Part shown: piece by piece, positions 5,158 to 37,152 of the stretch
Layout of the letters: each line of letters begins with the position of its first letter
Position numbering within the stretch: the stretch's first letter is position 1
NCBI GenBank assembly: GCA_900095095.1
Contig: FMBT01000608.1
Coordinates: 1 to 37,152, forward strand
Direction of reading: 5' to 3'
Length of the DNA: 37,152 bases
Source: Fragilariopsis cylindrus CCMP1102
Taxonomy: Eukaryota > Bacillariophyta > Bacillariophyceae > Bacillariales > Bacillariaceae
Notes under the pieces: model-generated
Told to the model about the DNA's origin: nothing
The model's input: the letters and a program-made list of their open reading frames with translations, nothing else
The model's database searches: none
Translations under genes and position numbers: made by a program

Positions 5158-5787
5158 TTATGCATTCCATGCATCAAATAATGTTGTTCCACCACGTTCG
5201 GCTGCCTCTTGTGCCCCGATATCTAATGATCTCCATTCATCACGTCTTGGATCCCATAATTCTGATTGATATCCTTGAAGAGGATTATATTTATCTTTCA
5301 TATTAACAGCAATGAACCATAGATTAACATCATTTTGCAATTGTAGTAATATGGAACGACTATCAGTATTATTATTATCGTCGTTCTCGTTCTCGTCGTC
5401 GACGACGGTGGATGGTTCTGATTTTGTTTCTGATTTTGATACAATTAGATTTATACATAAACAATATATCCATACCATCATAGCATCACTAACATCACCA
5501 GGATTATTTTCAGTATTATTCTCTTTCAAAGCATGTTTTAGTATAACTTTCATTGGATGTGCTGCATTTACTGCACGAATCCATATTAACCGTCCATCTT
5601 CTAATGTCTTCCATATCGACTCTAAATCACTACCCACACTTGTTGCTATACATTTTACAGATTTTATTAAATCATTCCAGTAATATGTTGTGCTTTTAGT
5701 TGTTGTTATAGTAGCAGATGAAGTATCATCTTTACTACAGATTTCACCACTCATACCATCCTTGTTATTGTTGTTGTTGTTGTTGTT

Positions 5788-5850
<63 letters not shown>

Positions 5851-6528
5851 ACCGTCATTATCGTCGACGTCATTGCCGTTGCTGTTATTGTTCTCATCAC
5901 ATGTTCTTGCCGCTAGGACCATTTCTTCGAATGACATTGACAACATTCCATGCTCATTCTCTATTCCTTTTCCTATTGTCTTCGTTTCCGATGATGACGT
6001 TTCGGGTGGTATATGAATACCATTTTGTTCTTGTTCTTTTTCTTGTTTTTGCTGCGACGCAAATTGTTTTCTTAAGATTAATATTAATACAGATTTATAT
6101 TGGTCAGGACATAAGTCTTTTGCTAATCCTAATATGAATCCGTCACGAACAATATGTAATTCTTCTATTGTTGTACAATGTGCAAATCCAGCAAGTACCG
6201 TACGTTGCCTATTAAATGCAGTAATAAATTCATCTGGTGTACAAGAAGTAGTAGTAGTGGCGATTGTTACATCGTCAGTAGCAGCAGCAGCAGCAGCAGC
6301 ATTATCGGCGGCATCAGTGGCATCAATGGCATCAGTGGCCTTGACGTTACCTTTTTCGTTGTCCTTTTTTATTGTTGCCACCATCTCATTACATACAGAG
6401 CAGAGCTGAGGTACCAACTTTCTAGAGATGATACTTCGACGATTTGTCGATATTCGAATGTGCTCTTCGTTACTACTTTTACTTATTATCTTTTGTTGGT
6501 TGTGGCAGATCTTTCGATCGATTTTCAA
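5158..6528 (-). CDS. Asn-rich protein of unknown function
   Basis: The 456-residue single-exon frame has an N-terminal basic stretch, a Cys-x-x-Cys (QLCSVCNEM, about 42-50), an Ala-rich patch and a run of about 30 Asn, all from trinucleotide repeats. The conserved-looking parts are CTPDEFITAFNRQR through AKDLCPDQYKSV (about 95-145) and the C-terminal 180 residues, rich in Trp and hydrophobic residues and probably helical (WNDLIKSVKCIATSVGSDLE, then WIYCLCINLIV, ending FDAWNA). No signal peptide is visible and I recognise no family. It is transcribed divergently from the LRR gene across a 411-bp spacer containing duplicated hairpin units. The long (+) strand ORFs of poly-Leu or poly-Cys opposite the repeat are shadows. 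Confidence 0.65.
5763..5850. repeat. (GTT)n microsatellite encoding poly-Asn on the minus strand
   Basis: Eighty-eight bases of nearly pure GTT/ATT encode the Asn run of the unknown protein. Such tracts are polymorphic and prone to length error in assemblies. Confidence 0.9.
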
Positions 6529-6939
6529 TTGGTGATTTTGTTACGATCGATCGGGGGAAAGGAAAATAAAAAGATTCGGGGGCTAATTTAAATCCTTCCT
6601 TCATCTAACGCTAAATTCACTCCGCTATGTTGTAAAAATTTCCAGGTAAAAAGAATGAAGTCAGTCGAGTCAGTCGAAAACAAAATTTAAAAATCGATCG
6701 TTATTTTTAAGTTTCTGGACCGTACAAAATTTAAAAATCGGATCGTTATTTTTAAGTTTCCGGGACCGACCGGCCTGAAGAGTAAATAATAACTCAAACA
6801 AAACTCCGCAACACAATCACAATACGCAGTGTCATCATAAGGAAGAAACAAACACGACGGAAATTGATAGTCTTATCGTAATAATAACGACGACGTCAAA
6901 AGAAACGGATAGCGGAACAAAATACAACTGTATCGAGCG
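6529..6939. promoter_or_regulatory. Divergent promoter region
   Basis: This 411-bp spacer separates the starts of the Asn-rich gene (-) and the LRR gene (+), so it should carry both promoters. Its clearest structure is the duplicated hairpin unit at 6681-6768. I see no defined TATA box or other canonical element. Confidence 0.4.
6681..6768. repeat. Tandem pair of 42-44 bp palindromic units
   Basis: Copy 1 (6681-6722) and copy 2 (6725-6768) differ at only a few bases. Each contains TTAAAAATCG..ATCGTTATTTTTAA, an inverted repeat able to form a hairpin, and ends with TTTC(T/C)GG(G)ACCG. They lie in the middle of the divergent promoter. Confidence 0.8.
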
Positions 6940-8914: not shown

Positions 8915-11499
8915 TCATGCTGAGGCAGTACGCGCTGCAACAAATGCTTCAAATTCCTTACACGCACCGAGTAATCCAGCTTTATTCGAATCGGAAATAA
9001 TTGTATCACCATCAACAAATTTGACAGTCATTTGAAGATCGAGTTCGTCACCGTCGTCATCATCGCCATTGGACTGCTGCTGCTGCTGCTGCTGTTTCTC
9101 CTTCTGTTGCTTCTCCTCTGTTAAACATTTTTTAATCATTTCATCATATTCTTTCTTTTCTTGTACAACATGTTCTTCAAGATCTTCATTTAATGCATCG
9201 ATCCATGCCTTACCAGTTAGTTCTTTCCCCGTCAAATCTTTAACAATTTCAAGAAAGGGTCTTGAATTACCACATTCCCAGTAAGATTTTGTTAACGTTG
9301 GTCCAACATTCGGATTGTCAACAATATACCCATACTTGGTTTTAAAATATTCTCTTGTTTGATGAACAGACATTTCTGCAAGCTGTGTGTGCGTATAATG
9401 AATAATGATGAGACAGTAATAGTAGTGATAATAATAAACATGAATAGGGGTGAGTAATTGGTACGTTCACAGTGTTTCTCTTTTTTATATTTCCTATCCG
9501 TCCGAAGAAAATCATGTGGGAGCCTCTTTTTTCGTACACTTACCGTATATCCTTGATAGTAACAAGAAGCTTCATCACTCACAAGATGTGGGACACTTAA
9601 TAAAGGTCGGGCAGACAATCCACCTTGGATTTTAATTTCAATCTCATCGGCTAATTCTTGTATACGTTTGGATGTTAATTCCTCATCCGGTAATTCATAT
9701 AATGCCTTTTCAAAATACGACACACATAACATTGCACGTAATGAGAAGACCTTATAGGGATGCGTGGATCGGATATTTTCTTCAATGATCTCAAATGGGA
9801 TACTCTCTCCCTTCAAATTTTTTGCATACCTTGCTCTCCAGGAAGAATCATCCACTAATGAATCTAAAAACATGGATTGATTTTCTGCATATGCCACCGA
9901 GGTTGGTGAACGTTCTTGACTAAACAATGGTGATGGTTGTTTAATATTAGCAAAATGTGCAGCATGACCCGCCTCATGCATTAAGGTATTTAATGCTGTT
10001 AAACCTGATCCAACAGCGGATGGATCTGCTAAACTTGTAAAGTTTGTTTTCGATGGTTGGAACGTTCCATCGGGTTTAATCCAGGCAGGGATTGGCCAAT
10101 GACAAAATCCATTGGAATACTTTTTTGGACGATCTAATAAATCTAATGTCATGGTGGCACCACAATATCCAATTTTCATTGCTGAATACGATCGCATATA
10201 ATTTTCAACAGACTTACTAAATGGAAAATATGGATCCTATATAATAGATAATACAATAAGATGATACATAAGATGATATATATCATCGAGATTGGGTAAT
10301 GAGCGAGCAAAAGGGAATAAGGCAACGGACGATTCGGTAAGCAAAATTTTGCCTAGTATTCCGCCGTCGTAGTAGTATTATCAAATACATCAACGTCAAC
10401 AAGAACATAATAAGAAATACTGTTCCTAAAAGCATAGGACTATATTAAAGACCCTTACCATTTTTTTAATAACAGACCCTGCCATCATATAACCTGTATT
10501 CCATGGTTCTAATGCTTTTGGTCCATGTTCCTTCACTAATTCTTGACGTGCTTTAATCATTAAGGGACGTGTACCCACTTCCAGACCGTCTAGTATCTCA
10601 AATAATTTCGATTTGGAAAATCCTTCGGAATTGGATACAGTATAATCATAATAATCTTGAAAGCCTAATAGTTTTCCCAGTTGATTTCGAAGTTGGATTA
10701 TTTCCAAAAAACCATTCTCTAAGACAAATGAACCAATCGATCGTAATCCATCTTCATAGGCAGATTTACGTACCGACTCGTCAGAGGATGTTCTCATTAT
10801 GGTACGTAATCCAACAGAGGATGCTGCTATGAATTTTTTCTTATTGTTATTTTCATCATCATTATTATTTTTGCTGTAATATCCTAATGTCGTCATTTCA
10901 TTGCGTGCCTTTTCTAATGTACCTTCTAATTTATTTGTTTCTTCACGAATTAATTTTGTTTCCTTGGTTGGAAATTCATTACATTGACAGGTACGAATAA
11001 TTATATTTAATACTTTTAATAAATCGGATGATGATTCCGATGATTCCGATGATGATGATGATTCCGATGATGATGATGATGCTAATAATGTATCACGATA
11101 TGTCTCTGCTTTATTTAATAAATCAGGATTGGACAGTAAATCTTCCATCTCCTTTTTTGTTTTGGATAATAACTCAGTCGAATATGTTGTTACAGTATTA
11201 TTATCAGTGGACATTGACGACGATAATGCCATTTTAGTCCCCCAGAATTGATTTTCAAATGCTTCATGTTTTTCCGCATACTTTTTATTAAAGGTATTGA
11301 CAAAAATTTGTGCTTCTGCCCACTGAGTAGTGTCGTTATCGTCGTTGTTGTCGGTGCTTGTACTCGCCATGGTTCTGATTCTTATTTTTCCTCGCTGTTG
11401 TTGTTGTACGCCTGGTAGATTTCTTATTACTGGTATGATACGACTTTTGTTAGAACTTGTTCGGAGTAGTAATCTTGTCAGCATGCTTGGTGTGAACAT
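8915..11499 (-). CDS. M3 family zinc oligopeptidase, three exons, probably organellar
   Basis: Exons on the minus strand are 11499-10459, 10236-9544 and 9382-8915, with GTAAG donors, AG acceptors and phase-0 introns of 222 and 161 bp. The joined protein is about 733 residues. Exon 2 holds the zinc motif HEAGH in TLMHEAGHAAHF, with a downstream YAENQSMFLDS supplying the third ligand Glu. CYYQGYT joins LAEMSVHQTREYF across intron 2, as in thimet oligopeptidase/OpdA relatives that cut short peptides. The first 45 residues are rich in Arg and Ser with no acidic residue (MFTPSMLTRLLLRTSSNKSR), so mitochondrial or plastid import is likely; a second ATG (MASTSTDN) could give a cytosolic form. The role would be clearing presequence and other peptides. 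A Ser/Glu repeat near codon 150 and a Gln run near the C-terminus look like lineage-specific insertions. Confidence 0.88.
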
Positions 11500-12275
11500 A
11501 CAGTAGGTAGTAGTAGGTAGGTCATAGTGAAGTTTTCGATGATTGATTCATTCAGATTCATTCATTCATTCATTCAAATTTAGACCTTCATTATCATTAC
11601 TGTATTATCAATTCTTGCCTGGGGGGGGGGGGGGATGAATCAAACCCCCAAATTCATTTTTTATTTTTAAGTTCGAGCTCCTTTACCGAACCTCTTATTA
11701 TTGTTTTTAAGTCAGCATTGTTATCATGTTTCTTTTTGACGCGTGATTGTTGGCGGGCGATTATTGGAGAAGAGGAAGGACTGGCCCAGAACTCACCATT
11801 TTTGATAAGTACACAAAATGAGAGTGTGTAATAGATCGTCATCACGCGATAAAACTACGAGGAGCCAAAAACGAAGGAAAAATCCATTTCAATTGACACA
11901 AACACAGTGGTTTGTCTGGTTGGCAGGGGGATGAAAGATCAGAGAGTCAAGCAGAACTTAAAACCGTCGCCGTTGAAGGCGGTAGGGTTTTCTTATCTTC
12001 CTAACCTAAATAATATAATTCTTTTAACTTTCACTTACACACACACACATATTCACAAAGCCATGACTAACTGATATTGTCTATTGTAACACCAACAACT
12101 ACTACAACATCAACATCAACACGCTATTGTTCTACTATACTATATTGAAACTGCTTTATTTCACATAAATAATACAGCGTACCGTGTATTACTACCACTC
12201 TAGCTAGCCGTCCTGTGTATAATAACAATAACAACAATCGAATCAATAATACAATACGATACAATACATTCAATT
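11500..12275. promoter_or_regulatory. Divergent promoter region between M3 peptidase and ISWI genes
   Basis: About 780 bases between two starts. It contains a G14 homopolymer (11621-11634), a CATT-rich stretch and a short (AC)n tract near 12035. The open frame at 11654-11845 (-) shows no domain and is not supported as a gene. Confidence 0.45.
11621..11634. repeat. G14 homopolymer
   Basis: An uninterrupted run of 14 G, a likely sequencing-error site and a possible nucleosome-excluding or structure-forming tract about 120 bp upstream of the peptidase start. Confidence 0.9.
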
Positions 12276-21023: not shown

Positions 21024-22854
21024 TCATGTACTCTGAATCGTTCCATTTTTTATATTTTTGACAATATCGTAAATGACTCCAATAAATGCAAACGTAGCGA
21101 TAATAATAAAAAAAGCCATGAAGATGTAATGAGCTGTCAATCTCCACTTTGGTACAGTCTCTCCATGCTTTCTATTCCAAAGTACGATTGGAATGATAAA
21201 TGATAATGGCGTGGTACTTATGGCAGCAGTCAAACCCTGGAGGTCGGATAACTATTTCGTATAGAATGAGAAATGTAAATGAAATAATTGTTAGGAAAGG
21301 TTTTGCTCCTTGCTCTTTGTGTATGTGTGTGTATATGTATATGTATATGTACATGATAATAATATATACGAGCATGCCATTTTTACTATCAACAACATTC
21401 TGGCACCTATATTTGCACTTACCAGTGGCAAATAAATCGCTAATAGTGCAGTGGCTACTACCCATAAAAACCGACACAAGAAATCAAGTTTCTTATTTCT
21501 GGGATGATGATCAACGTGATCCTCTTCTATGGCCAGACCAAATATGTCACGGATCAGAGTGAATGCGCCCTGATTGAATACCGATCCCTCGGTCCCCACT
21601 TTAAAAATAATGAAAAGCCAAAGAACAAATAAAGCAGCACCTGGCAAATATCCGGTGAAGCTGTCTAATATATCCTCGGCAACGTTGTCACCAAAAGCTG
21701 CATAACCAAGGACACTTATCATAATAAAAAAGGGCGTAGATAGCGAATATGCAAATGTTGTAGCTTTCGTCATGTCCCTATGAGCATCGGCAGTATTATG
21801 ATCGTGCAGGGAGGCCTGAATATCGGGCATGATAACGTGATAGCCCCATGCAAAAATAAAATTTCCAAAAGCAGCGAAGACACCCATTGTAAAGTCGAGG
21901 TTGGTATCGACTCCTGTTGGTCGACCATGAGTGACGTCCTCGTTTTCGCCGCTGGCTAAAACGACTATTGGCCCAATAGTCGCGAATAAAACAATTACAA
22001 TAGCCGAGATAAACCCCAGGCAACTGATCTGCCAGGCGCTACTCAGATCAGGTAACAAAGAAAGGAAAAACACACCGACGGCCATCTATTTATTTTTTGT
22101 TTTATTGGATAGGAGTTCATTTTATTTTCTCTGTATTGTAAGATACCAACTTAAATTAATAGAAAAAGCAAGAACCCAGCTACTGTATCAAGCATATCAT
22201 ACGCACGAAAAAATGTGACAACAACACGATAGCACTTACGATGGACACCCACACCTTTTTAGAAAGCGCTGCGCTGTCATCATTGCCGTTTGTTATCATA
22301 TCCAACTCGTACATGGCATTCCCACCAAGAACGAGGAATACTGCTGAGATTGGAAATAGGTACAATATTTGAAATGGTCGAAGAACTCGTCTTGAAAACC
22401 ATGTACCACCCATAATAGCATCTGCGACCTCACTGTATGTGCCCTGGTCGGGTGTTTGTAATGAAATTAGTAACGTAGCTGTATAGTAACTTCCAGATGA
22501 AACGACGAGTGCCATTATAACCGCACCAGCATATCCCAAATGTGCTGTAGCGTAGGGGAGAGATAAAACTCCTGCACCAATACAAACCACGACCGAATGA
22601 TAGAAGGCATGTAACCAGACCCGTCCGTTATGACGGCCGTCATCGATCATAGATTCGAAACCAGATGTTCTTGCATATAATCGACTCTTATTTTTAGTAT
22701 TTTTGGTGCTGTGGGGTTTCTCATTGTCTTTTCCTCCTCCTCCTTTGGTGGAATTGTCGACGTCCATTTCCGCAGACTCGGCACTGTCATCCAGAATACT
22801 CTCCCTTTCCAAAGGAAGGGATGATAATTCGCTGATAATCTCCGTACTATCCAT
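21024..22854 (-). CDS. Amino acid/auxin permease family (AAAP) transporter, three exons
   Basis: Exons on the minus strand are 22854-22240, 22085-21423 and 21236-21024, with phase-0 introns of 154 and 186 bp using GTAAGT donors. The protein is 496 residues with about eleven membrane helices. A hydrophilic cytosolic N-terminus of about 75 residues precedes the first helix pair (WLHAFYHSVVVCIGAGVLSLPYA), the hallmark G-x-G-[VI]-L-[SA]-L-P motif of AAAP carriers. Later family features include FAAFGNFIFAWGYHVIMPDI, GYAAFGDNV and the final TTPLSFIIPIVLW, formed across intron 2. It probably imports neutral amino acids by proton coupling or exports them from the vacuole; the sequence does not tell which. 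The large hydrophilic loop after the sixth helix (ASGENEDVTHGRP) is typical of plant-like members. Confidence 0.92.
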
Positions 22855-23680
22855 TATTCAGTTCGGCGGTATGTAATAATATAAAATGATGATAGAGTAA
22901 TACAATAACGGAATGCGGACACTTCAATCGACTAGGATTTTGTTACTTGTTACTTGTTTATTTTTATTTTTATTTGTTGTTGCTGTATGTCGTGACAGTA
23001 GTAGTAGCTGGGATTGCAGAATTTAGGAAGGGAGAAATATATAAGCTGCTGTCGTCGTGAACTTATGATGTTGAGTAGTACTGTACTATTCATGCGTTGT
23101 CGTTGTTTTTGCGATTTTGGTTGTCAAGACGAATTAAGATCTATCTGTTCGCTCGCTTCGCCAAGGTGTCAACTTTTTTATTCAGTAATGATACGGATGA
23201 CTAAAAATAGAAAGTTAACACGTGGTGATTAACTTTGTCCGAATTTTTGAGGCGATGCGCGATGAACAGCACGACAGAAATCCTACCGTAGTATTTTCGC
23301 ACATCAATATCAAGGAGTAATATCCGCGCGAGTGGAACAGCACACCCCTCAAAGCAATATTATCACCCCCCTGGAAAGGATCTACTTTTTACAATTTTTT
23401 ATTTTATTCGTGCTTTTATCGTGTGAAATTTTACGCGATAGCTTTATGACAAATTAGGACGAGGAGAACAAGGCAGTGTACGAAGTACTATCAGTACAAA
23501 ACAACGGTCATGTGTGTGCGCGCGCATGCATCACCTCACAATCACGATAGTACTTCGAAGTATCACGATTAACAAGCGGTTACGATAGTTCATTAAATTA
23601 AAACACAAACAAACCAAAACAGAAAACAAAACAAAAATAATCATCAATCAATAGCGAATCAATCGAATTCGGAAATAATC
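22855..23680. promoter_or_regulatory. Divergent promoter region between AAAP and four-helix genes
   Basis: About 825 bases between two starts. It contains a 12-bp inverted repeat with an alternating purine-pyrimidine loop at 23481-23557, and a weak (+) frame at 23014-23232 with no domain. Confidence 0.4.
23481..23557. repeat. 12-bp inverted repeat flanking a (TG)(CG) alternating tract
   Basis: CGAAGTACTATC (23481-23492) and GATAGTACTTCG (23546-23557) are perfect inverted repeats. The loop contains a 23-base alternating pyrimidine-purine run (23509-23531), a Z-DNA-prone sequence. The element ends 123 bp before the next start codon. Confidence 0.75.
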
Positions 23681-24634
23681 ATGGCAGCAATTCTTTGTAA
23701 CGGTATTGGAAGTTGTTGTGAATGTGTGTGTACGGCACCATTTAAACTGTGTGATAGTGGTTGTCGAGGTTGTTCCAAGGCATGTTCAAGTTTATGTAAT
23801 GGATTATGTGGTAGTCCATTATCAGTATTTGTTATTGTTACTGTCGCGACACAACTTCCAGTGGCAATTGTTAGTGCAATGGAACTGGGTAGTGTATTCA
23901 GATGTCAAGGATCGGATTGGTTATTAGGTACATTATTAGTTGCTATCGTACATATAAGTGTGGCATTTTATTTATCCTATCGTGTTACGAATGGTACAGA
24001 TGAAAAATTACGTGATCGACATACATCATGGGAAAGAATTTCATTTTTATTGTGTCATGATCCATTCTTTGCAATCTATATATTAATTTATTTATTCTTT
24101 ATTGCATGGTTATGCGTAGGATCAGTTTGGTCAATACAAGATAAAATGGATACTAGTACTACTAATGTCTGTGGAAATGATATTGAAAGTAATGTTGGGA
24201 TCGTATTAGGACTTGATTGGGCATATTTCTTTATTGGTCCATCAGTATTATCATGTATTTTATGTTGTACATGCTTTTCGAAGAAAGATTATGCTGCAAC
24301 TGATGCAGAATTTGCTGCTGCTGCTGCTGCTGCTGCTGCCAATAATAATAACAATAATGCTAATGATATCGAATCACCACCCAATGATAGTCTATCATCA
24401 CAATCGGACTCAAAAACAAAGGAAGCATCGAAACCACCTAGAACGTATTCGGTCGATGGTGTTCCGATCGATGATAATGATAACCAAGATAGAAAAAGTA
24501 GTATTAGTAGTAGCAATGCAGCATCAGCAATTCCAGAAGTTTTGGCAAAGGAAATTCCTCCTCCTGTACTACCGCCATCAACTGCTCCACATTCATCAGT
24601 TGATGATGCAGATGTAAAAGCTACCGTATACTAA
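23681..24634 (+). CDS. Four-helix membrane protein with Cys-rich N-terminus, function unknown
   Basis: The 317-residue single-exon protein starts with a Cys-rich segment: about 12 Cys in the first 43 residues (GSCCECVC, CDSGCRGCSKACSSLC), likely palmitoylated or metal-binding. Four hydrophobic helices follow at about 46-66, 80-101, 127-152 and 172-198; the last ends in CILCCTCF. The C-terminal 110 residues are disordered, with a poly-Ala run, Asn runs, Ser/Pro stretches and an RTYSVDGVP segment. I recognise no named family; the topology recalls small integral proteins restricted to stramenopiles. The start is supported by the conserved-looking MAAILCNG and by an AT-rich, A-rich leader. Confidence 0.72.
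   Translation: MAAILCNGIGSCCECVCTAPFKLCDSGCRGCSKACSSLCNGLCGSPLSVFVIVTVATQLPVAIVSAMELGSVFRCQGSDWLLGTLLVAIVHISVAFYLSYRVTNGTDEKLRDRHTSWERISFLLCHDPFFAIYILIYLFFIAWLCVGSVWSIQDKMDTSTTNVCGNDIESNVGIVLGLDWAYFFIGPSVLSCILCCTCFSKKDYAATDAEFAAAAAAAAANNNNNNANDIESPPNDSLSSQSDSKTKEASKPPRTYSVDGVPIDDNDNQDRKSSISSSNAASAIPEVLAKEIPPPVLPPSTAPHSSVDDADVKATVY
24314..24340 (+). repeat. (GCT)n coding microsatellite (poly-Ala)
   Basis: Nine consecutive GCN codons, eight of them GCT, encode Ala in the cytosolic tail of the four-helix protein. Confidence 0.9.
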
Positions 24635-24843
24635 AAGAGTGTGATGTCCTACGAAAAAGAATACAAAAAAAGATAAGAGATTGGAGATCCAGAGAGAGAG
24701 AGAAAAAAAAGAAATTTAAGAATATAGTATACGAGAAAAAGATACAAGGAAATCAAATGGGTTGTACTGTATGTCACAATATAAATAAATTAACATCATA
24801 CAATAATATTAAATGGAATACATAAATCGTAATTGTATACTGG

Positions 24844-24868
24844 ATATATATATATATATATATATATA
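24844..24868. repeat. (AT)n microsatellite
   Basis: A run of 25 alternating A and T bases. Confidence 0.9.
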
Positions 24869-25258
24869 GCTACACGTAGTCTAGAAGAAAACTTGCACTA
24901 TAATTAGGGGGGAATTATCCTTTCTAGGTTAGTTAATAGACTATTTTTTCTGTCTTTTTCAATTCAATTTCATTTTGGCATAGTAAGTTACTTAAAAGTA
25001 TTGATTCACACATATATATTCATATTCAATATATATCCTACTATGATATACTGTATATTATATTCTTTAAGATAACATGTATGTACGACTGGAGAAATTG
25101 AATAAATACAGATTTTACTCTGCCCCCCACGATGGATTTTTTAAAAAGATCTTTTTCACACTTTATTTTTGTTTATTACTTTTCACAAAACACCACGAAT
25201 AGTAATGGAATGCTAGCATAAAAGATGAAACGACAACACAGCCAAGCAAACAGCAGAA

Positions 25259-25363
25259 ATGGGAGCGTCCGATCATCAAGACAAAGAACACGAAACTGCA
25301 ACTGACCGATGTGGCATCACGAAAGGAGATATTACGTTACAGTTGATTCATTTGTGTGAGTAG
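25259..25363 (+). other. Short ORF that may be a first exon
   Basis: ATG at 25259 opens 34 codons of ordinary composition (MGASDHQDKEHETATD .. TLQLIHL) before TAG. A good donor, GTGAGT, overlaps the end, so this could be a first exon. I cannot find a matching downstream exon and see no domain. Confidence 0.15.
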
Positions 25364-25836
25364 GTCCTCGTACAAATCATTACAAAATCGTTTTTACTTT
25401 TTTGCATACCGTTATCAAAAATTACATATCACTTTGACTTGACTTGACCTCGTTCTCACGAAAAAAGGGAAAAAGTTCTCCCACGAATTGTTTCCACAAA
25501 CTTAACACGGAACAGACGCACACTCACACTCACAATACACAACTCATTCTCGCCCCGCATACGTACAGTACAACTAACAAAACCAACAAACAAAAAAGGA
25601 ATGGAGTCCAATAGGATGCGATTGCGCTGTTGAATTATTTGAAATAATTTTCGATGATGGATGTCATTTTTTTGGTGTATTACCAAAAATTCTGGTTCAA
25701 TTTGGTATATCGTATTCCAAAAACTTTTTCACTCCTCCCTTACCCTCTCCGTATTTTGTATTTGTTCTCTTTAAGCTGCAGTTCTTGTGATGTGTACATT
25801 TTTCCATTTCCACTTGAATCCCCCTTAGTACGGCGA

Positions 25837-26083
25837 CGACTCGTGATACCATATGAGATCTCCTTTTCCATAGGGTACATAGTCATTCCCATTTTGTTTC
25901 CTAATTAGGCTCCTATAACGCTAAAAATAGGGTTTTGAGAGTGAGCGACTATCACGAGGATGCGAATAACGCAAAACGACTCGTAACACCGTACGAGATC
26001 TCCCTTTCCGTGTGGTTCCTACTACTAGTATACGTTCCTCATTGCTTTCCTAATTTAGCTATGTTGAATCCGCGATAAAACAA
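25837..26083. repeat. Imperfect direct repeat, two copies of about 95-105 bp
   Basis: Copy A (25837 to about 25930) and copy B (25977 to about 26083) share CGACTCGT, GAGATCTCC, CTTTTCC/CTTTCCGT and TTTCCTAATT(T)AG(G)CT in the same order, with scattered substitutions and small indels. They end about 270 bp beyond the 3' end of the ice-binding gene and may be remnants of a mobile element. Confidence 0.6.
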
Positions 26084-26352
26084 GAATATTGCATCAGTTA
26101 ATTTTGAGTCCTAGTAGTAAAGTGAGTTATTAGAAGAACATTATTAATAGAAACGGCACCTAATTTATTTGTTGTCTTATTTTTTACTATTGCCTAAATT
26201 GTCGTTGTCGTCGTCGTCGCCATCACATCATATTGTAATCTCCCAACAACGGGCCATATCGACACTCTCCTAGAGCTCTATTCCTAGTTTCCAAACGCAC
26301 CGGCCTTGCCGACTTCAACCTATAATTCATCAGCATTGTCATCTACAACTAC

Positions 26353-27936
26353 TTATGGTTTCTGAGTGACGGTCGCTATCTGGAGGGCGACCGCCGTCTG
26401 CGACAAGATACGTCCGTTCAAACTGGATGTAGTTTTCATTGTAACAGCTGTCTTGACCAAGAGGATTCCCTCCATATGCGAACCTGCGCCGATGCTTACC
26501 GTTTGGGGGACCGACCAGAAGATGTTCTCTGCCAACGCACCACCAGCAAGAAAGACATTGGTGTTTGCGGCTTGGATAATGCTCCCTGATGTCCTCATGA
26601 TGAAGATGTCCGTTGCAGTACCGTTGAATTGGACATTAGAAGTGATCCCAATATTTGTGTTAAAAGTGTAGACACCGGGGCCCAACTGCAAGCCGCCGAT
26701 TTCGCCTGCTCCAACATTGTTGTAGGCGTCGCTCAAGCCGGGATTAATAGAGGCGAGACGTCCTTGGGAGTCATTGTATGCAGTCAACATGTCGCTTGCC
26801 GCTGTGGTCAAATGAGTGCTAGTTGGAGCGGTGTAGTCCGCCGCATAGGCCTTTCCTGTGACCTCGGTAGACGTCGAAAATGTAGTAGTACTGTCCATGA
26901 CTAAGCCAAAGCCAGTCATAGCGGTCGCAGCGATGGGCGAGACGGCGATGTCGCCGGTAATAGCTGAGCCGGGCACGTTGGTGATACCAGCCGCTGCGAG
27001 AATGACGTAGTTCGCAGCAGTTCCAAGTTCGACCGGGTCGGGCATTTCGCTGTCGGGTAAACGATAATCAAAAGCAACAGCATAACTTACAGTTTGGGTT
27101 GTGCCGTCTAGATGACGGCGACCACTAAGAAAGTCGACACGTTGTTTCAATGCACGATGCATAGAAATAGAATCAAATGATGGTGTATCAGTAGTCTCAA
27201 TGTCATTACATTCTAGTAATTTACGACGACTATTATTGGTACATTCTTCATTCGGAATGAAGGTCATATCACCCATAACAATATGGTCTTGATTCCATGA
27301 AGCACGACCAGTGGTGACAGGTTCGATACTACTAATTCGGTGTCAGTATTGCCAGTACTATTGTCATAAACCTCTTCAGCGATAACTAAACGCGCATCAG
27401 TACCTTTTTCATTTGCTAACCACATGCTAGCAATATCTTCACTTGAAACACAACGACCAACCACTAGTTTCGTAAAAGTGGCTCCGTCCGTTGTTGTTTC
27501 TTCATTCATCATAACACTTCCATCTGTTTGAAATGTTGTTCCTTGTGCCTTTACAGTAACAATGTCAATACCATCTGTACCACCATTGACTTTCATCACA
27601 CCAGATTTCATATCAACAATAGTATCCTTACTATTCTTGACAGCCATCACAGTACCGGCAATAGTTCCAATGCATAAAAGCACGCAAAGGATGGCAAGTC
27701 CATACAATTGCTTCTTGATTGATTGATTATCTTCCTTCAAGCTTTGGAACTGTGTGCCCAGCGATACAATTCTTGTCTTGATAAATGTCCTTTCCCACCA
27801 ACGTCCATGTTCTTTGCGATACGTTCTGCATCCGTTAGAAATCCCTTTTCGGCTTGATCCCATAATTTACTTCCACGGGACATCGTTTTAGCCCTTCGAG
27901 GGCGTCGCCATTAGACGCTTGTTCAGCCGTATTCAT
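26353..27936 (-). CDS. Chimeric membrane-anchored ice-binding (DUF3494) protein, three frame breaks
   Basis: Four successive frames read as one protein if one base is restored near 27885, 27800 and 27348. First comes MNTAEQASNGDALEG (ATG at 27936), then SRGSKLWDQAEKGFLTDAE with an EF-hand-like NMDVGGKGHLSRQELY. Next are a coil (LKEDNQSIKKQLYG), one membrane helix (LAILCVLLCIGTIAGTVMAV) and an ectodomain of about 230 residues including MGDMTFIPNEECTNN and RRKLLECND. The last 226 residues (about 27033-26356) are a complete DUF3494 ice-binding domain: VELGTAANYVILA, GDIAVSPIAATAMTGF, TGKAYAADY, LGPGVYTF, TDIFIMRTSG, NIFWSV and a late SLNGRILSQTAVALQIAT. Such domains bind ice and inhibit recrystallization. 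This part is visibly GC-richer than the rest. No secretory signal other than the helix is seen, so a type II surface-anchored protein is inferred, if the breaks are errors. Otherwise it is a young pseudogene. Confidence 0.7.
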
Positions 27937-29189
27937 TATGATCGATGATTAGGGAGAGAAAGTCTGTTATTCTTGTTTAGTACTTCTCTGTTGGTATTTT
28001 TGTGAGGTAAGAACTATTGTCAGAAATTTGTAAACGTTCTTCGTTTTAAAAAAGTTTATCGTGGTGTCTGCCTGTACGATGTAGAGAATTTATCGTTTTG
28101 GATATTATGGACCGCTACGTGACGGTATTCCTTCTTTGAATCATTTTGATATTAGCTCGGGCCAATGAGGTCGAAAACGATCTAAAGCTTGAGCAGTATT
28201 AAGTACCTCATACAACAACAACTCCTAAGCTTCAATCTCGATGTTGATATTATTCTGAGTCACTAGATAGTTAGAAAGTTACTAGGCAACCGAAGTTTAG
28301 ATTTTTCTTCTGTGCGACTGGGGGTGGTAATAATTAGAGTATTCCCGCATACAAGGTAGGTTTATCGTTGTGTCTACTTGTAATCTGAAAAACTACGAGT
28401 AACATCTTGCTTTAGTCTTGGAAGTTGTGATAGTAAACGCGAAGACATCTTGCTTTAGTCTGGAAGTTGTGAAAGTAAAATGCGAAGACATCTTGCTTTA
28501 GTCTTGAAGTTCTGATAGTAAACGCGAAGATATCTTGCTTTAGAGTAATTGGAGTTGTGATAGTAAACGCGAAGAATCACAACATTCAACTACTTGAAGT
28601 ACATCACATAGCCTATTTTAATAATAATAATATGAAAGAGAACAAAAAATAGAACACTGAAAATGAAAAGTGTAACACTGAAATGAGAAGTTTAAATTAT
28701 TGAAGTTAAAAAGTAGGATTTTTTAATAAATAAGTTAGGTTCCGTTGAAGAAGCTTGAAGTATTGGCACGCGACAAGAATACTTTACCACGAGATACTAC
28801 GGGAAGACGACGACTGACTCAGACTGTAACGCTGTTCGAGATGGTGATTCCTATCCATTTCACCAATTCTCCCCCTAAATAACCCTATTCCCCTTTTATC
28901 TCTCCTACCGGTACTGTATTTAAAAAAAAATGTTTTGTGAACAGTTCTTGTTGTTTCACGTTATTGATTATACATAGTCTATTTGCGTTGTTGGATATTA
29001 TTTTTGTATCAAAAGCAGACAACACTGTCACATCATGTGCTTTTGTTGATTGCTGTTGTTGCTGTTTAGACTTCAAGTCTTAACAGCTTTCAAGCTACTG
29101 CTCCATTAATGGCGCAGGTATTTGGGGTACTTTTTTCTTTGGGTGTTATTCAGTCAAAAAATGGTCTTATACCCCCCTATTGAGACACA
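27937..29189. other. Gene-poor region with minisatellite
   Basis: No gene is seen in about 1.25 kb. It holds the promoter side of the ice-binding chimera and a 43-bp minisatellite at 28402-28574. The frame at 28885-29076 (-) has no domain. Confidence 0.5.
28402..28574. repeat. Minisatellite, four tandem copies of about 43 bp
   Basis: Units 28402-28444, 28445-28487, 28488-28529 and 28530-28574 each begin A(C/T)ATCTTGCTTTAG, continue with a GAAGTT(G/C)TGA(T/A)AGTAAA core, and end with GCGAAG. They differ by small indels, the last being most divergent. They lie about 470 bp upstream of the ice-binding chimera start. There are no unique spacers, so this is not CRISPR. Confidence 0.88.
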
Positions 29190-29886
29190 GTGCATCTCCG
29201 TTCAAGGGCACGTGTCTTTTATATACTTAATACTACTCCCTTGGGATTTGTAACAGTCCAACGGACACCCTCACTTGCCTGTACCTACTTAATTTCGGCC
29301 CACCAGTGTTTGGATCGGAGAGACGCGAAAATGAGCCGCGCAATTTATAAGATGGTCCATCCTGGAAGGAAAGAGATGCCTTTGAAAGAATGTATACATA
29401 ATCTGACATACTCTCTTCTTCAAAGAGGTGATCCTATGTGACATCGGGATATAGGACCTCCACCAAGTGCCACAAAGGATATTACTACTTCTACTTCAGT
29501 TGATGGTAGAAGTATAAGATCTGATTCATTTACCCAACCCTTTTCTTCTCCAGGAGCCCAAGGAACTAGAATTCTAACTGATATTGGTACACCTCGTTCA
29601 TCTTCAACTACTGCTCAAGGTTAGTAGTAGGAATAAGCTCCAAAAACAACAAGCTTTTAAGAAGCGACAGAAGCTACAGCCTGATTGTGTTCATCAACCA
29701 ATGCCATGTCTTGTAAGGAGTAAGGATAATGATAAACCTGGAAGTGGACCCTACTGTAAATACGAAAAATGTGCAGATCTCAAGAGCAAAGCCATAGTAA
29801 AAAGACCTTATAAAACAGTCTATCAATGTGAGCAGTGTACTGTGGAAAAAGGATTCCCTTTTTGGCTTTGTTGTATTTCCCATTAA
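29190..29886 (+). pseudogene. Degenerate transposase-like remnant
   Basis: One frame (29190-29441) includes KMSRAIYKMVHPGRKEM and SLLQRGDPM, hits TGA, and stays open in frame (HRDIGPPPSATKD .. SSSTTAQG) to a cluster of stops near 29624. A second frame then carries QPMPCLVRSKDND and a Cys-pair region (CKYEKCADL .. YQCEQCTVEKGFPFWLCC). The PPSATKD text and the C-terminal Cys-x-x-Cys block remind me of diatom DDE/piggyBac-like transposases. There are stops and a frame change, and I see no terminal inverted repeats. Identification is tentative. Confidence 0.35.
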
Positions 29887-31058
29887 CAATATTGATTTCG
29901 ATCGAAAATCACTGTATTTAGTGCGTGCTAATTTAGCGCACTTTATGGTTTATGTACTCAATTTGCTTGTAAATCTTCAGTGTAGTAAAATCTTCCACAG
30001 ATTCCAATGGATTTGGCTAGATTGATATTATTAGTAACTGAGGTCGTTAGTCCGAGTCGATCTAGTGCAATCTAATAGGGTGAATGCTTTTGTCTTCTAC
30101 TAGGTTTCCACCTAGGATAATATTCTAAGTTATTTATTTTTTTGGAAAATTAGCGTTTGAATTTACTAGTAAAAAAAATAAGAAAAAGCCGAAAAATTCG
30201 TTATAGCTTGAAAGCTGTTAATATCTTTGATTGCTCATCCTCCTTTTAGTTCACATCTTGCAATTCTACTAGTACCAAATATTGAACATTATCTTACATA
30301 CCACTTCTTTGTCACATCGAACCCATCTTCGTAAAGCCAATTCTCTGTATCCTCATTCAATTTGCTAAATGCATCCTTTGCTTTCCGCTTGAGTGGAGTA
30401 AGGTCCCGACTGAGAATCGGAAGTGATCTTGTCACGGATACCATAATCTATATATGGAGTACAGTACTACTGTAGCACCCACCAATATTTGAATATTATC
30501 ATGCCATGAAATAAATTGAGTTGAGATTCAGGAGGGGGAGGGGGTGATTTTGTGTTACGCTGCTCGATTTTTCAGAATAATTTAAAGAGAAGATCACGTT
30601 TTTAAAAAAAAAAGGCATTTTTGAAATTTATTCAGATAGCCGTAAATGCACATATCTAACAAAGCAAAGCTTCTCAAACTTTCAAAGCTGTACAAGAAGC
30701 ATTTACTGTACTCTATTTCATCAGACATACTATATAAAACGAAGACAATAAGACAAAGACAGGAGAGCGATCTCATATATTTGAATTGGAAAACGATTTT
30801 CCCTGAAAATTTTTGAGAGGAACTCTCTAAAGCATTCATTCCCTTAAAAAAAAAAAAAAAGACACAAAACGTGTGCAATCAATATACAATCACAATTGTA
30901 TCTCGGTCCACTCCAGCGGTACTCGCCATACGCTTTTACTGTCGACATCGTCCTCTTATGAATTCTGAAGATCAACGTCAACTCAAAACAAAAACAAGCA
31001 GCACGAGAATTATTCTTTCAATCACAACCACCACCACCACAACCCACCACCACCACCA
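29887..31058. other. Gene-poor region upstream of the tricorn gene
   Basis: About 1.17 kb. It contains the short Hsp110-like fragment at 30289-30444 (-), an A-run near 30846-30860 and CAC-rich sequence just before the tricorn start. The frames at 30594-30878 (-) and 30871-31062 (+) show no domain; the latter is probably 5' UTR. Confidence 0.45.
30289..30444 (-). pseudogene. Hsp110/Grp170-like C-terminal fragment or exon
   Basis: A 51-codon frame includes KRKAKDAFSKLNEDTENWLY followed by EDGFDVTKKWYV. The pattern E-x-x-x-W-L-Y-[ED]-[ED]-G is characteristic of the C-terminal helical region of Hsp110/Grp170-type chaperones. It is preceded by ATATATAG and followed by GTAAGA, so it could be one exon, but I find no neighbouring exons on this strand. 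A gene fragment is more likely. Confidence 0.35.
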
Positions 31059-34000
31059 ATGAACGGCGGTAATGACGATTATTCCGATTCACATGCCTCT
31101 GATGATTTGGAAGATGGAGGAGCAGTACTAGGAAACGAAAACAACCAACGGCAGTTGATGATGAAAACCCAGGATTAATGCGTACTACACGTCGTACAAG
31201 AGGTTCCTATGAAAGTGTTCTGACAAATAATAATCCACAATCAAAAAAACAATCAAGCAGTAGTTTTGTAGGTCAGTATGATTCTTGGTATGGATATTCC
31301 ATTGGTCACAGCAATGATGTTAATTGGTACGACTGGATTTTTAATAGGTAGTGCCAAACCTGATTTATCAATTGCAACACCACCGAACAATAGTATTATG
31401 TGTGACGAACAACAAGAAACTATAAATGAACATTAACAATGATGAATGAAACTGAGATTACTGATATTATTGATACAGAAATTAAAAAGAAAAAGAAATG
31501 ATCACAGTTCGATACGATCCGATACTGTACTTTCTAATAGTAATACTGATGATGATAATGATGCATCGAATAATAATAGTATATAATCCATTCAATATTC
31601 CACCAGGAGGAACAGGGAATAATCTTTTCCTTACCCACCGCAGTTCAATAGTGACGACTCCTCCGCATTATTGGTGCTGCTGGTGTTGGATTTTTAACAC
31701 ATCCACATTTAGTGGATAATCGTTTAGTATTTTTATCTGAAGGAGATGTCTACGTCACCCAACTTTCTTCTAATTCTATCCTAATTCTGATTCTAATACT
31801 AATACTTTTGATTCAATGATATCAGCATCAAAAGTAACAACAACAATTGGTAATATAATTGATCCTAAGTGGCATCCAACATTACCGTTAATAGCGTATA
31901 CAGCAACATATTCAGGACGTAGAGATGTGTATTTAATGGATTTATCATCTGGTAATGAAATGAAAAGAAATCATTACAAGTACCCAATCCGATTAACATA
32001 TTGGGATGTTGGTGCTGGTGGTGTTAGTGGTATTATTGGTTGGACGTCAACAAATAATGATGGTAATTATAATGCATTAGTATTTCGTGCATTATCAAAT
32101 GATTCATCATTACCTGATAATAGATTATATATAATTCATCTATCAGCATTAGTATCATCATCATCAGAAACAAAAGCAACAGGTTCATCAAATTCAGCAA
32201 ATGCAAATGCAAATTCACCATCAGTACTTGAAATTGAACCAATCCCATTAGCACAGGCAATTGATGCAACACGATATAATAAATGTTGGTACTTTGTCCG
32301 GATTAATCAATCATCACATACTATTCGATATGTTGGCGGTACTGCAGAAAATTTATGGAAATATTGTTGACAATAATGACAATAGTGATGACGATGACTC
32401 TAATTCGTCATTATCGTTATCGTCACAACGATTATTTACTGATGATGGATATAAAGGAACAAGTAAATCACCACAATTATATCATCATAAAATTGGTGAA
32501 GATCATCATCATTACTTATTCTTCTTATCCGATCGTGGACGGAATACTGTTTGAATCACATCCAGTATGGGTCCCTGATCGGATGAATGTTTGGGCATTA
32601 CGTTTGAATGATAATATAGAATTGTATTCCACAAATGATTTAATACAAATTACTGATACATCCTGTGATTTTGAAGGAAGGACAATACGAGAGTATACTG
32701 TTGATTCCATTACAGGAAATTTAGTTGTAAGGATTGGTGCTGATTTATATTTCATGTCCAATAATGATATACAATCTAAATTGAAAAATATAATGATTCT
32801 AATTCTGCTGAGAATAATAATCGTAGGCAAAGATCTTTAGAACAGGAAGATGGTAGTACCGGTGACGATAACGACGAAAAGGAGAAAAGGAAGAAAATAA
32901 TACGACAACGATGACAACCGGTGCATTAAAGGATAAAGTAGGAGTAAAGGAAAAATCGGATAACAATAAAACCAAAGTGCCGTTGCTATGGAGGACGATA
33001 CCAACAATACATCATCATCGGTAACGACGACCACTACTGCCGAGAAGGATCTTTCTCCTGTAGCGAAGAATACAGAGAACGCACTTGCAGGAACAACAAC
33101 TACGTCATCAACATTAACGAGCGGTAATACTGCTGATACGAGTGATACTGCCAATGAGGACGATACCGGGACGGTATCCAAGGAAAAAGCAACGGAGGAG
33201 GAAGATAATGATAAGCTTCCTGAAACGGTCCCCGCAATTGTTCCTGATACGACAGAGGAAGACAATGTCACTACAAAGAACACCATCATAGATGCTACTA
33301 CCCCTGTAGATCAAAATGATGATGGAAGTCCTACCACCACCACCACCGTAACTGTTGAATCATTGGAAATTGATGACGATTTGGGAATTAACATTACAAG
33401 TTTTGACAATATTGATAACAGTACCGAACCACCAGCTAAGTACTATTACGACTTCGAATCTCCTGATCTTGTTTCTCGTAGTGCCGTTAACGCCGCTGAT
33501 GACCTAAATGTTGATCATTATTCGGGTCATTCTACCGAATTGAAACGTTTACCGATTGTGGTCTATTCTGACTTTCAGAATGTACAAGAAAGGATCGTTC
33601 CTGTTAATATTATAGATCATTTTAAGTACGGTGATGTTTTTGAAACTATTACCGGTTCAATTCAAATGTTAATGACATTAAGGGGGCAGTTGTGGGTTGC
33701 ACCCGTCGTCGATGATGAGATATCATCCTACAAGGATTCAGGAAAGAATATGCCAGCACGACGGTACCGTATCGCACCTGGTGCTATGATGGGCGGTGTT
33801 ACTCGTATTTTAGCATCTATGCACGTCCCTAACCCTGTTGAAGATGATACGTCCGATCGACGTCTTGCGGTCATCCTCGCCACGGACCCATTAACGTCCA
33901 CGGCGGAACATGCATTCTATTTAGTTGAAACTCAACCGGGTGTGTCACCACTCTTTGTTGATATGGAACGTTTACCAAAACCTTTTCTTGGTGGATTCGT

Positions 34001-36847
34001 TTCAGGTGGCAGTACGAAAGATGGTGGATTGGGTAGTATCAAACCTGATACGTTAGCAATGAGCCCATGTGGTAATAGAATGGCCTGGTCGGATACCGAC
34101 GGTAGAATTGTTGTTATGAACTTACCTCAATACCAAGAACTGGATGGCGGCGAATCATCCTCATCACTAAAGCAATCTGTCAAATTCGTTGTATTACCCA
34201 AGAAAATGAATTGGACGAATCTATGGTCGGGGATGAGGTGGATCTTGTATTTAGTCCCGGTGGAAGATATTTATCAATTCAACATAATGCACGTAATCAG
34301 TTTCAAATTATCAGCATTGCAGACCTTGGTGATCCTCTCGGTGAAGAGAATAAGATTGCCGATATTGTTCTTGGTCGGATTGTTCAAGCAACGCCATCCA
34401 GATTCAATTCGGTTAGCGCGTATTGGGGTAAAACCCCTACAGATATACATAATTTTGTACAAAATAAAACAATGTCAAAATTGTTTTCAGTGGACGAACC
34501 AGATGATGTCGCCACAACATTATACTATTTATCTGACCGTGATATTATGACTGATGTATCTAATCCGTGGGGTAGCCGGCAACGGATGCCACATTTTGTT
34601 AATACGTATGGTGTATACGCACTTCCATTCCAAGCAAAGTACATCAAAGCATCAGACTCCCACTATGGACAATTCCGAGGTGGTGGTGTCGAAGGTACGT
34701 GTGTATGATGATGATGATGGCGATTACTCAGCCGTGCGTCACATACCGTGTCCTTTTCCCTTTCCTGTTTAATCTTACACAACTGTTTTGTTTTGTCTTT
34801 GACGTCTACTTCAAAACAACTTGTATCTTCTCTTCTTTTCAGAATTGCACGTGGAGACATTGCTGGAGCGTATGGATCTAATCCAAGCCTTGTTGGATGA
34901 GAAAACAGCATCTGCGGTAGAACGTCGTGAAAGGCGTAAACTTGCCGAAACGCTCCATCCTCTAGCTGGTGCTTTTGGCTTTGCTGAAAAAGCCTTTGAG
35001 AAACAAAAGCGAAGGAGCACCACTATTCATCGTCAACTCGGCGAAGATAGCAAGGATAGAAGTAAGGACGACGAGAACGATGAGATGATCAATGCGGATC
35101 ACTTGGAGGAAGCTGAATTTCCAATTGACATGGATATTGATTTCGGTCCTGTCGATCTGACATTCGCACGAAAAGCCTATCGACTTTCAACCATCCCAGA
35201 GGGTGCTTATAATGATATTCTTTGTCAGAATCCTGATGGTAGTCTCCTATTAACTAAAGACGGAACACACGTAGAAGTGTTCCAGGCAGAGGGTTATCCA
35301 TCGGATCAGTACGAAAGCAAGAGTTTCCAGGCTACAAGTCGACGTCTTGCCGATTACGGATTAAGCGCATCGCGAAAGTTTATCTATCTTGTATACTCTC
35401 CTGACGGAGCTATTCGTGTGGTTCCCAATACTGCCGCAGGGACCGCATCATTGTTGGCCGATGATGTACTGGACGAGAATGTCGTTGATAAGGAAGGGAT
35501 GCATCTAAGTATCTGGCCTTCTCTCGAATATCGTCAAATGTACGATGATGCATGGCGGATGCTTCGGGATTACTTTTATGATCCGGATATGACTGGTATT
35601 GATTGGTCTGCGATCCACGAACGTTTCCTTCCACTAGTAGAGCGCTGTACGAAGCGAGAAGAAATAGACGACGTCCTAATTCAAATGGCATCGGAGCTTA
35701 GTGCATTGCATGTCTTCGTTTACGGTGGCGAATATAACTCCCCAACACACGGTGATGACGACTTGGAGTATGTCAACGAAGTTGGTAGTTTGGGAGCAAT
35801 TTTGAAACGCACTCCTGCCTGGAAAGGATACACTGTCATGAATATTCCAGAAGCCGATCCGGACTTTACCAAGATTGATCATTCGGTTACGATATACAGT
35901 CCATTAAGTGACCAATCCCTTCGACTAAGTGGTCAACGTGGATTACAAGTTGGGGATGTCATTGTTGGAGTCAATGGCGAGTCTGTGATGTCAGTCCCAG
36001 ATATACATATGCTGCTACGTGGTACATCGGTAGAAGTATCCGATTAGATGTTTTGCGTTTGACATCTGGGACTGCTGCAACTACAGATGATGATGGTACA
36101 GAAGCTCCCGTCGAGTCACTGATTACTGTTCCAATATCTCCAAGTGCGAATGCAGATCTATTATACAGTGCTTGGGAATATAAGACAGAACAGAAGGCCG
36201 AAGAACTGGCAGCTAAGGCAGGAATTTCGGTCGGATACGTCCATATGAGGGATATGTCAGGTGCTCAAGCCGAAGATGCATTCGCACGAGGATTTTTCCC
36301 TAATTACAAGAAACAAGGTTTTATTTTGGATGTTCGTCACAATCGTGGTGGGAACATCGACTCGTGGGTGCTAGATGTGTTGCAACGAAAACCATGGATG
36401 TATTGGCAATCTCGTGATTTCGATGCAACGAATGGCGGACTCGATTGGGACATGCACTTTGCCTTTCGGGGACATGTGATTGTTTTATTGGACGAGAAAA
36501 CATCCAGTGACGGAGAAGGCGTCTCGAGAGGGATCAAGGAACTTGGTTTGGGTAAATTGATTGGCACCCGTACGTGGGGAGGTGGGATATGGTTATCATC
36601 AGACAATCATTTAGTCGATGGTGGTATCGCAACCGCACCCGAAATTGGCACATTCAATGAGCATATTAATTGGGGTTTAGGTGTTGAACAGATGGGCGTT
36701 GATCCTGATATTGTAGTTGATAATGACCCACATGAGGCCTATACAGGTAAAGATCGACAATTAGAACGTGCGATTGTAGCATTAAAGAAATGGATCGAAG
36801 AAGAACCGGTTGTGATTCCCAAACTAAAGGAAAGAGAAAGGATATGA
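31059..36847 (+). CDS. Tricorn-type S41 protease with N-terminal membrane anchor, multiple frame breaks
   Basis: The ATG at 31059 begins an acidic N-terminus, then a membrane helix (MILGMDIPLVTAMMLIGTTG, near 31278-31340). Beta-propeller text follows: GFLTHPHLVDNRLVFLSEGDVY (part), DPKWHPTLPLIAYTAT, YLFFLSDR and HPVWVPDRMNVWAL. After a long Thr/Asp-rich insert the second propeller continues (KPDTLAMSPCGNRMAWSDTD; DLVFSPGGRYLSIQHNARN). An intron lies at 34695-34842. The last exon has a PDZ-like GLQVGDVIVGVNG and the S41 core: LSALHVFVYGGEY with the catalytic His, DVRHNRGGN, TSSDGE with the probable nucleophile Ser, GTRTWGGG and GVDPDI. Archaeal tricorn degrades peptides released by the proteasome. 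About fifteen one-base frame shifts break the reading frame, near 31153, 31275, 31433, 31494, 31580, 31637, 31668, 31778, 32350, 32549, 32790, 32890, 32970, 34200 and 36040, without loss of conserved text. Confidence 0.85.
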
Positions 36848-37152
36848 CCATGGGAGATCGTGAATGCAAAGCTCCATCACCAGAACAAAGTAGATAGAAG
36901 ATTTCTATAATGGACAGAAAAAATACTATAAAAAAAACCTCAGGTAAATTTTGGGTTGTGCGTTCAGATAATTCAACTTTTTTTAAAATAGAGATTTATC
37001 TGTTATTGTTATTGTGACTGGGATTGTTATTGATGTTCTTCCAAGCTCGTTTCGATGCATTCTTTAGGCACGACATTCGCATACGAATCGTTCAAATTTG
37101 ATTTTTGTTGTTGTTCACTATTTTAAAACATTCACAGCATCTGTTGTATATA
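36848..37152. other. 3' flank of the tricorn gene, nothing seen
   Basis: An AT-rich sequence with TTATTG runs near 37003-37035. No ORF, RNA gene or clear repeat is visible before the window ends. Confidence 0.5.

Follow-up and report, generated by a model that had tools for sequence, protein, structure and literature searches.

Candidate membrane-anchored ice-binding proteins encoded by a multicopy gene family of the diatom Fragilariopsis cylindrus

The gene at 26353-27936 and its ice-binding domain

The window, by which we mean the whole stretch of DNA analysed (37,152 nt), is the entire contig C396 (FMBT01000608.1) of the Fragilariopsis cylindrus CCMP1102 assembly (67.9 Mb in 818 contigs); a second contig, C590, also covers this locus. 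On the minus strand, at 27936-26353, lies a gene for an EF-hand-like segment followed by one membrane helix, an ectodomain and a complete DUF3494 domain, spread over three reading frames with three frame breaks. An earlier note on this DNA had given the coordinates and strand correctly, and the module order and the three breaks that it described were confirmed in our analysis. The DUF3494 part belongs to a 329-aa stop-to-stop frame (26353-27342), the helix and ectodomain to a second frame (27866-27264) and the EF-hand-like segment to a third (27883-27770), all on the minus strand. Elsewhere in the window we noted, also on the minus strand, an ORF with a long poly-Asn run (5158-6540) and a Peptidase family M3 gene (PF01432) in two frames (9292-11547).

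We describe the features in the direction of the gene, all on the minus strand. The first candidate ATG (27934-27936) is out of frame with the EF-hand-like segment of the window and aligns with the presumed start of the intact paralogs (MTS... or MAS...), and the second (27881-27883) is in frame with that segment; break 1 (27894-27895) lies between the two. The EF-hand-like N-terminal segment, presumed cytosolic, occupies 27770-27880 and contains two degenerate loops (27859-27824 and 27805-27770), and break 2 follows it at 27768-27769. The single transmembrane (TM) helix YGLAILCVLLCIGTIAGTVMA, assigned on the basis of hydrophobicity, relatives and a predicted model, is encoded at 27642-27704. 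The ectodomain (27109-27641) has two conserved Cys, is interrupted by break 3 in an Asp/Thr-rich linker (27330-27380, near 27333-27370) and ends with an RxL motif (RHL, 27109-27117) at the junction with the payload. A fast-evolving linker with the start of the ice-binding region (27004-27108) leads to the DUF3494/Ice_binding domain (PF11999) at 26365-27003, which is complete and has a predicted fcIBP11-like fold, and the stop codon is at 26353-26355.

The PF11999 profile matched this frame over its full length (1-208 of 208) with an E-value of 4.7e-54 and 183.6 bits (cut-off 28.7), and the closest solved structure by sequence was 6a8k (E 4e-82). We predicted the structure of the window's own DUF3494 domain with AlphaFold, using a 30-row alignment in which the window was joined by 29 of the 79 fetched loci from bacteria and archaea. 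The model, with a mean pLDDT of 90.7, consists of strands plus a helix at residues 87-107; residues 114-120, a short insert absent from the five fused paralogs, fall under 50. DUF3494 proteins fold as a beta-solenoid with a long alpha helix alongside, and the predicted model fits this description. Its best Foldseek match was again 6a8k (TM 0.92, rmsd 1.5, 63% identity). The gene product of C307:329391-330077 matches the 6a8k chain with 100% identity over 229 aa, and we take this chain to be FcIBP11 of F. cylindrus; the PDB title reads sea-ice microalga. A passage of a review (PMC8991070) names FcIBP11 of this species together with Kondo et al. 2018. In domain, fold and genome, the window's protein is like fcIBP11 and the other secreted diatom DUF3494 proteins; fcIBP11 differs in that it lacks a TM module and that its N-terminus, shortly before DUF3494, is hydrophobic and signal-peptide-like. 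The window's domain would presumably bind ice.

Fused copies and other DUF3494 genes in the genome

We searched the genome with DNA and protein queries for further copies of the module order, and found the fused order at six loci on four contigs: C396 (the window), C297 and C520 (twice in tandem on each) and C456. Three of the copies are single open frames from a presumed Met, namely C297a (492 aa), C297b (517 aa) and C456 (506 aa). The other two have one break each, C520a near the tail and C520b in the linker, and in C520b, as in the window, the first ATG is out of phase with the internal one. DUF3494 begins at residue 282-296 of the intact paralogs, behind a hydrophobic helix that starts near residue 70, and the signal-peptide-like N-terminus shortly before DUF3494 that marks secreted diatom ice-binding proteins was not found in them. 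An ice-binding domain and a transmembrane domain are present in one chain in these three proteins, and in the window copy only across its frame breaks. Because the same order occurs at six loci, and in one frame at three of them, the fusion of the EF-like, TM, ectodomain and DUF3494 parts is real and well beyond chance. Since these three paralogs carry the whole order in a single frame, a separate signal exon for DUF3494 is not needed, and an internal start with such an exon was dropped as a candidate. We also considered whether the assembly had wrongly joined a gene for an ice-binding protein to an unrelated membrane gene, as the contigs are error-rich with many single-base indels. Besides C590, four contigs carry the identical junction, at six loci in all, in diverged sequence and at three of them in one frame. 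Unless every copy has the same artefact, this leaves such a chimera with practically no chance, and we reject it.

Three other contigs, C464, C67 and C447, carry the tail, TM helix and ectodomain common to the fused copies, and all three continue into other sequence immediately past the same point; in C447, an in-frame TAG occurs once near the start. In a tree of the module (11 rows, with a very distant outgroup), the six fused rows formed one clade in 0% of bootstrap trees, with a p-AU of 0.0496 for this grouping, and this result suggests that the non-fused copies may have been derived from fused ones. A tree of the DUF3494 domains was built from 29 of 53 PF11999 matches, the other 24 being incomplete, broken, distant or retrieved only in part. 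On it, 2 changes are required for the six fused domains, and a single clade of them was not rejected (p-AU 0.378). Among viral contigs, 27 pattern matches were obtained and none was a relative of the TM/ectodomain module.

The same 29 matches comprise 12 short proteins with signal-peptide-like starts (judged by eye, without SignalP), 4 domains in long Pro-Ser-rich ORFs, 7 members of a second lineage and the 6 fused domains, so the fused class is one among several architectures. The Pro-Ser-repeat ORFs are very long (739-1982 aa), are located on C19 (L044), C631 (L045) and C425 (twice; L046 and L048), and perhaps encode cell-wall ice-binding proteins. A single 760-aa ORF at C674:243466-245442 has three tandem DUF3494 domains. 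The secreted-type FcIBPs (fcIBP11 on C307 (L038), and those on C623, C83, C439a/b and C552) have a common C-terminal tail, RRGLRGLQVA or similar, and also RxL motifs.

Pairwise dN/dS was computed by the Nei-Gojobori method, which averages the shared history of two copies and does not isolate the window's own recent branch. Among C297a, C297b, C456 and C520a, the ratio was 0.07-0.50 for the tail, 0.04-0.25 for the TM part (five of six pairs, the synonymous sites of C297a-C456 being saturated and the pair not computable), 0.18-0.37 for the ectodomain, 0.36-0.53 for DUF3494 and 0.36-1.0 for the linker. The window's pieces compared with the paralogs gave 0.18-0.47 for the ectodomain, 0.31-0.59 for DUF3494, 0.34-1.46 for the linker and 0.03-0.24 for the TM part, except for 0.80 against C520b (39 codons with few changes). 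For the non-fused pair C464-C67, the tail gave 0.73 and the ectodomain 0.31, on few changes. As judged from these ratios, purifying selection has acted between copies on the tail, helix, ectodomain and DUF3494 domain, and not on the linker.

Frame breaks of the window copy

C590 aligns with the window at 21972-37151 in inverted orientation with 98.3% identity, 38 substitutions and 133 gap openings. Over the gene (26353-27936) without the linker at 27330-27380, there are 1504 identical columns, 1 substitution and 27 gap openings; the window is the shorter at 2 places, which correspond to breaks 1 and 2 (27894 and 27768), and C590 (C590:64070-65647, L028) at 25. The linker itself has 5 substitutions and 5 gap openings, and the remainder of the overlap 32 and 101. 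The gaps of C590 are denser in the gene than in most neighbouring kilobases, and its copy of the gene is probably an unpolished consensus.

The three breaks differ in what the other copies tell about them. At break 1, the window is one base short of C590 in a short G run, and the phase is nevertheless the same in both contigs because C590 lacks a second base, at 27912. The two ATGs are 53 bases apart in the window and C590, 80 in C520b (the same phase) and 57 in C520a (in phase), and a Met stands at the position of the second ATG in C297a, C456, C520a, C520b, C464 and C67, and is absent in C297b. Break 1 may be real, would do no harm if the second ATG is the one used for translation, and may lie upstream of the true start. 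At break 2, the window is one base short; the base is present in C590, and since all five other fused loci agree with C590, this break is probably a consensus indel of the assembly. The Asp/Thr-rich linker of break 3 differs among the seven aligned copies and also in C590, which does not contradict the break.

As a control, we examined the neighbouring S41/tricorn-like protease gene (PF03572, E 2.5e-21) found in several frames at 31774-36847 on the plus strand. The window is broken at 34202 and 36027, and at both places C590 has an extra base and keeps the frame open; conversely, C590 is broken at 23597-24634 where the window is open, and its protease region is also not one frame. The protease breaks at 34202 and 36027 look like assembly errors, and from the reciprocal pattern of breaks we take most indels of the two contigs to be consensus errors. 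That the breaks are biological, the window copy being a true pseudogene and only the other loci functional, appears rather unlikely to us. For decay speak the three breaks themselves, a copy on C590 that is likewise, and badly, broken, the phase at break 1 shared with both C590 and C520b, a break 3 uncontradicted by C590, and a copy on C307 near 276 kb that is truly decayed. These have to be set against a break 2 that neither C590 nor any of the five paralogs has, a break 1 that a start at the second ATG would render harmless, an open DUF3494 frame of 329 aa, and a ratio of 27 gap openings to 1 substitution that is better explained by consensus error than by neutral decay. A functional window copy is possible on this comparison, and, more generally, a frame break in this assembly should lead to a pseudogene call only together with a second haplotype or paralogs.

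Membrane topology, the EF-like tail and the RxL junction

One hydrophobic helix per module was found in seven of seven relatives, after about 70 residues; C520a has an additional weak hydrophobic peak, over 1.6, further on. The single-sequence model of the window's own piece shows a continuous helix at residues 2-50, with a mean pLDDT of 50.9, too low to read a fold of the ectodomain from it, and 61-88 in the helix blocks. The flanking charges (+1 to +2 on the N side, -1 to +1 on the C side) weakly favour an N-in orientation. The two Cys past the helix are kept in all seven aligned relatives, as is expected of an oxidising lumen or the outside. We consider that the genes form a small family in F. 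cylindrus encoding a type II (N-in, C-out) single-span membrane protein with its ice-binding domain outside, and give this reading a probability of roughly 0.6. The single helix would serve as an uncleaved signal anchor that leaves the short tail with its degenerate EF-hand-like loops in the cytosol, and would place the ectodomain (about 150 aa, with the conserved Cys pair), the fast-evolving linker and the DUF3494 domain outside. At the cell surface, DUF3494 could then bind ice at or near the membrane, and this would serve membrane protection, by keeping ice off the membrane, or adhesion, by holding the cell to ice.

The idea that F. cylindrus has membrane-anchored ice-binding proteins is not new in itself. 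A passage of a review (PMC8991070) that draws on Mock et al. 2017 attributes transmembrane domains to several FcIBPs and proposes that these protect membranes or sense ice; other roles, e.g. ice sensing, are called equally likely there. These proteins (FcIBP-1 and others) are like ours in species and in combining ice binding with transmembrane domains; the text available from that review mentions no EF-like tail, ectodomain, RxL junction or exchanged tails. What appears new, in view of the portions of the literature covered, is the structural detail, i.e., the module, the RxL junction and the exchanged tails. In the openly licensed (CC) PMC literature on ice-binding proteins, as far as its accessible portions go, we found no description of the EF-like/TM/ectodomain/RxL module, nor of exchanged tails or the RxL junction, and the sections obtained from PMC9756366 and PMC7245778 contain nothing on the module.

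Similar arrangements are known from other organisms. Among prokaryotes, 8.34% of 2886 single-domain DUF3494 proteins have a transmembrane domain (PMC9957290), a minority of prokaryotic ice-binding proteins; its authors, in the parts available, see minimal evidence of ice tethering, and those parts do not mention an EF-like/ectodomain module. A haptophyte protein resembles ours in that an ice-binding domain is C-terminal in a larger algal protein, and its authors suggest, in the available text, surface ice binding. If tethering is right, MpAFP of Marinomonas primoryensis would be alike in holding an ice-binding domain at the cell surface, and differs, according to the excerpts, in being a 1.5-MDa bacterial adhesin with roughly 120 repeats (PMC4083281, PMC5014055). 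Diatom ice-binding proteins have mostly been discussed as diffusible secreted molecules. With a conserved form that is anchored in the membrane and encoded by several gene copies, a cell would be able to bind ice, fend it off or sense it right at its surface.

A canonical EF-hand loop has ligand residues at positions 1, 3, 5 and 12. The loops of the window, DQAEKGFLTDAE and DVGGKGHLSRQE, depart from this pattern, with Lys at position 5 of each, Ala at position 3 of the first and Gly at position 3 of the second, where the paralogs have an acidic residue. All five relatives examined have the two Lys and the Ala, and four of them carry Gln at position 12 of the second loop. Pfam assigned to the window's 39-aa piece at best EF-hand_6 with an E-value of 0.047 and 13.9 bits, below the cut-off of 25, and in the three intact paralogs it found neither an EF-hand nor an output domain at E <= 1. 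The earlier note had called this part an EF-hand; an EF-hand-like segment is indeed present, and the label was generous. The calcium-sensing tail that it had also envisaged finds no support in these loops or profiles. Of four more distant relatives that we read, three (C367, C524 and C478) have a canonical-looking EF loop before the TM helix and C260 has a slightly altered one, and comparison with the Lys at position 5 here suggests that calcium binding was lost rather than gained. The module order and these distant loops are what a sensor of ice or calcium, signalling ice binding outside across the membrane to an EF-hand tail, could be built on, and ice sensing is among the roles proposed for the transmembrane FcIBPs in the review passage (PMC8991070). 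With Lys and Ala at ligand positions across five relatives, Gln in four, and neither an EF-hand nor an output domain in the intact proteins, we regard a sensor as very improbable.

The RxL junction bears on whether the ice-binding domain stays tethered. An R-x-L was found within 25 residues after the motif HRxLKxRV in nine of nine relatives checked, against an average of 2.84 of nine in shuffled segments; as the nine are homologous, this is to be read as conservation and not as nine independent events. Its position is the same within two residues in seven of the nine, and 8-13 residues later in C520a and C447. In all nine it lies as it does in RXL-processed diatom secretory proteins, between what would be a pro-part and a mature part, and an RxL-like motif, read by eye, follows the ectodomain in three of the four distant relatives. 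C464 and C67 may be two haplotypes of one locus. Their DNA shows 96% identity over the gene as far as the last RxL codon (L032:2015 and L033:1869); the tails from there (L032:1774-2014 and L033:1479-1868) are unalignable, and the alignment resumes downstream at 87%. Because both flanks align and the tail DNA does not, the tail in this pair, as judged from the alignment, is replaced at the RxL point, and a mere frameshift was rejected. Downstream of the module in C464, C67 and C447, no DUF3494 remnant was detected at E <= 1.

These observations make release the strongest rival to tethering, and a serious one, because the RxL is conserved and RXL domains are removed in silaffins. According to the part of PMC5525289 available, an unknown protease removes them, and its authors suspect the same for Silicanin-1, a diatom protein that spans the membrane once and has a large lumenal part, an RXL motif and a proposed proteolytic release; it differs from ours in being type I and silica-associated, with a signal peptide and a C-terminal cytosolic tail, and no ice-binding domain is mentioned in that part. 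By analogy, the TM helix and ectodomain may merely deliver a membrane-bound precursor to the secretory pathway or the silica vesicle, where a protease would cut at the RxL so that DUF3494 is released in soluble form or built into the wall. The linker, with dN/dS values reaching 1.46, and the exchange of the C464/C67 tails exactly at the RxL would suit such a precursor well. The module, some 250 aa long, is however better conserved than a mere delivery signal would require, DUF3494 proteins with signal-peptide-like starts already exist in the genome, and the removal described in PMC5525289 concerns, in its available part, silica-associated proteins and not ice-binding ones. On balance, we hold release to be unlikely, and retain the anchored type II protein as our reading; the RxL junction makes the choice between tether and release directly testable.

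The payload after the module is an ice-binding domain in the six fused loci, and the three other contigs have unrelated tails in its place. A broader proposal, which we make tentatively and with less than even confidence, is that the module is a type II membrane presenter ending in an RxL site, with exchangeable payloads, so that ice-binding domains would be displayed on the membrane or shed from it on demand. If this is true, these proteins would be unlike the FcIBPs secreted by a signal peptide.

Two of the distant module relatives, L066 (C524) and L068 (C260), have an EF-like loop, a TM helix, an ectodomain and an RxL-like motif followed by long Ser-Ala repeats. The decayed copy of the TM/ectodomain module on C307 (C307:275300-276400, L035) has a simple-sequence insert and a different tail.
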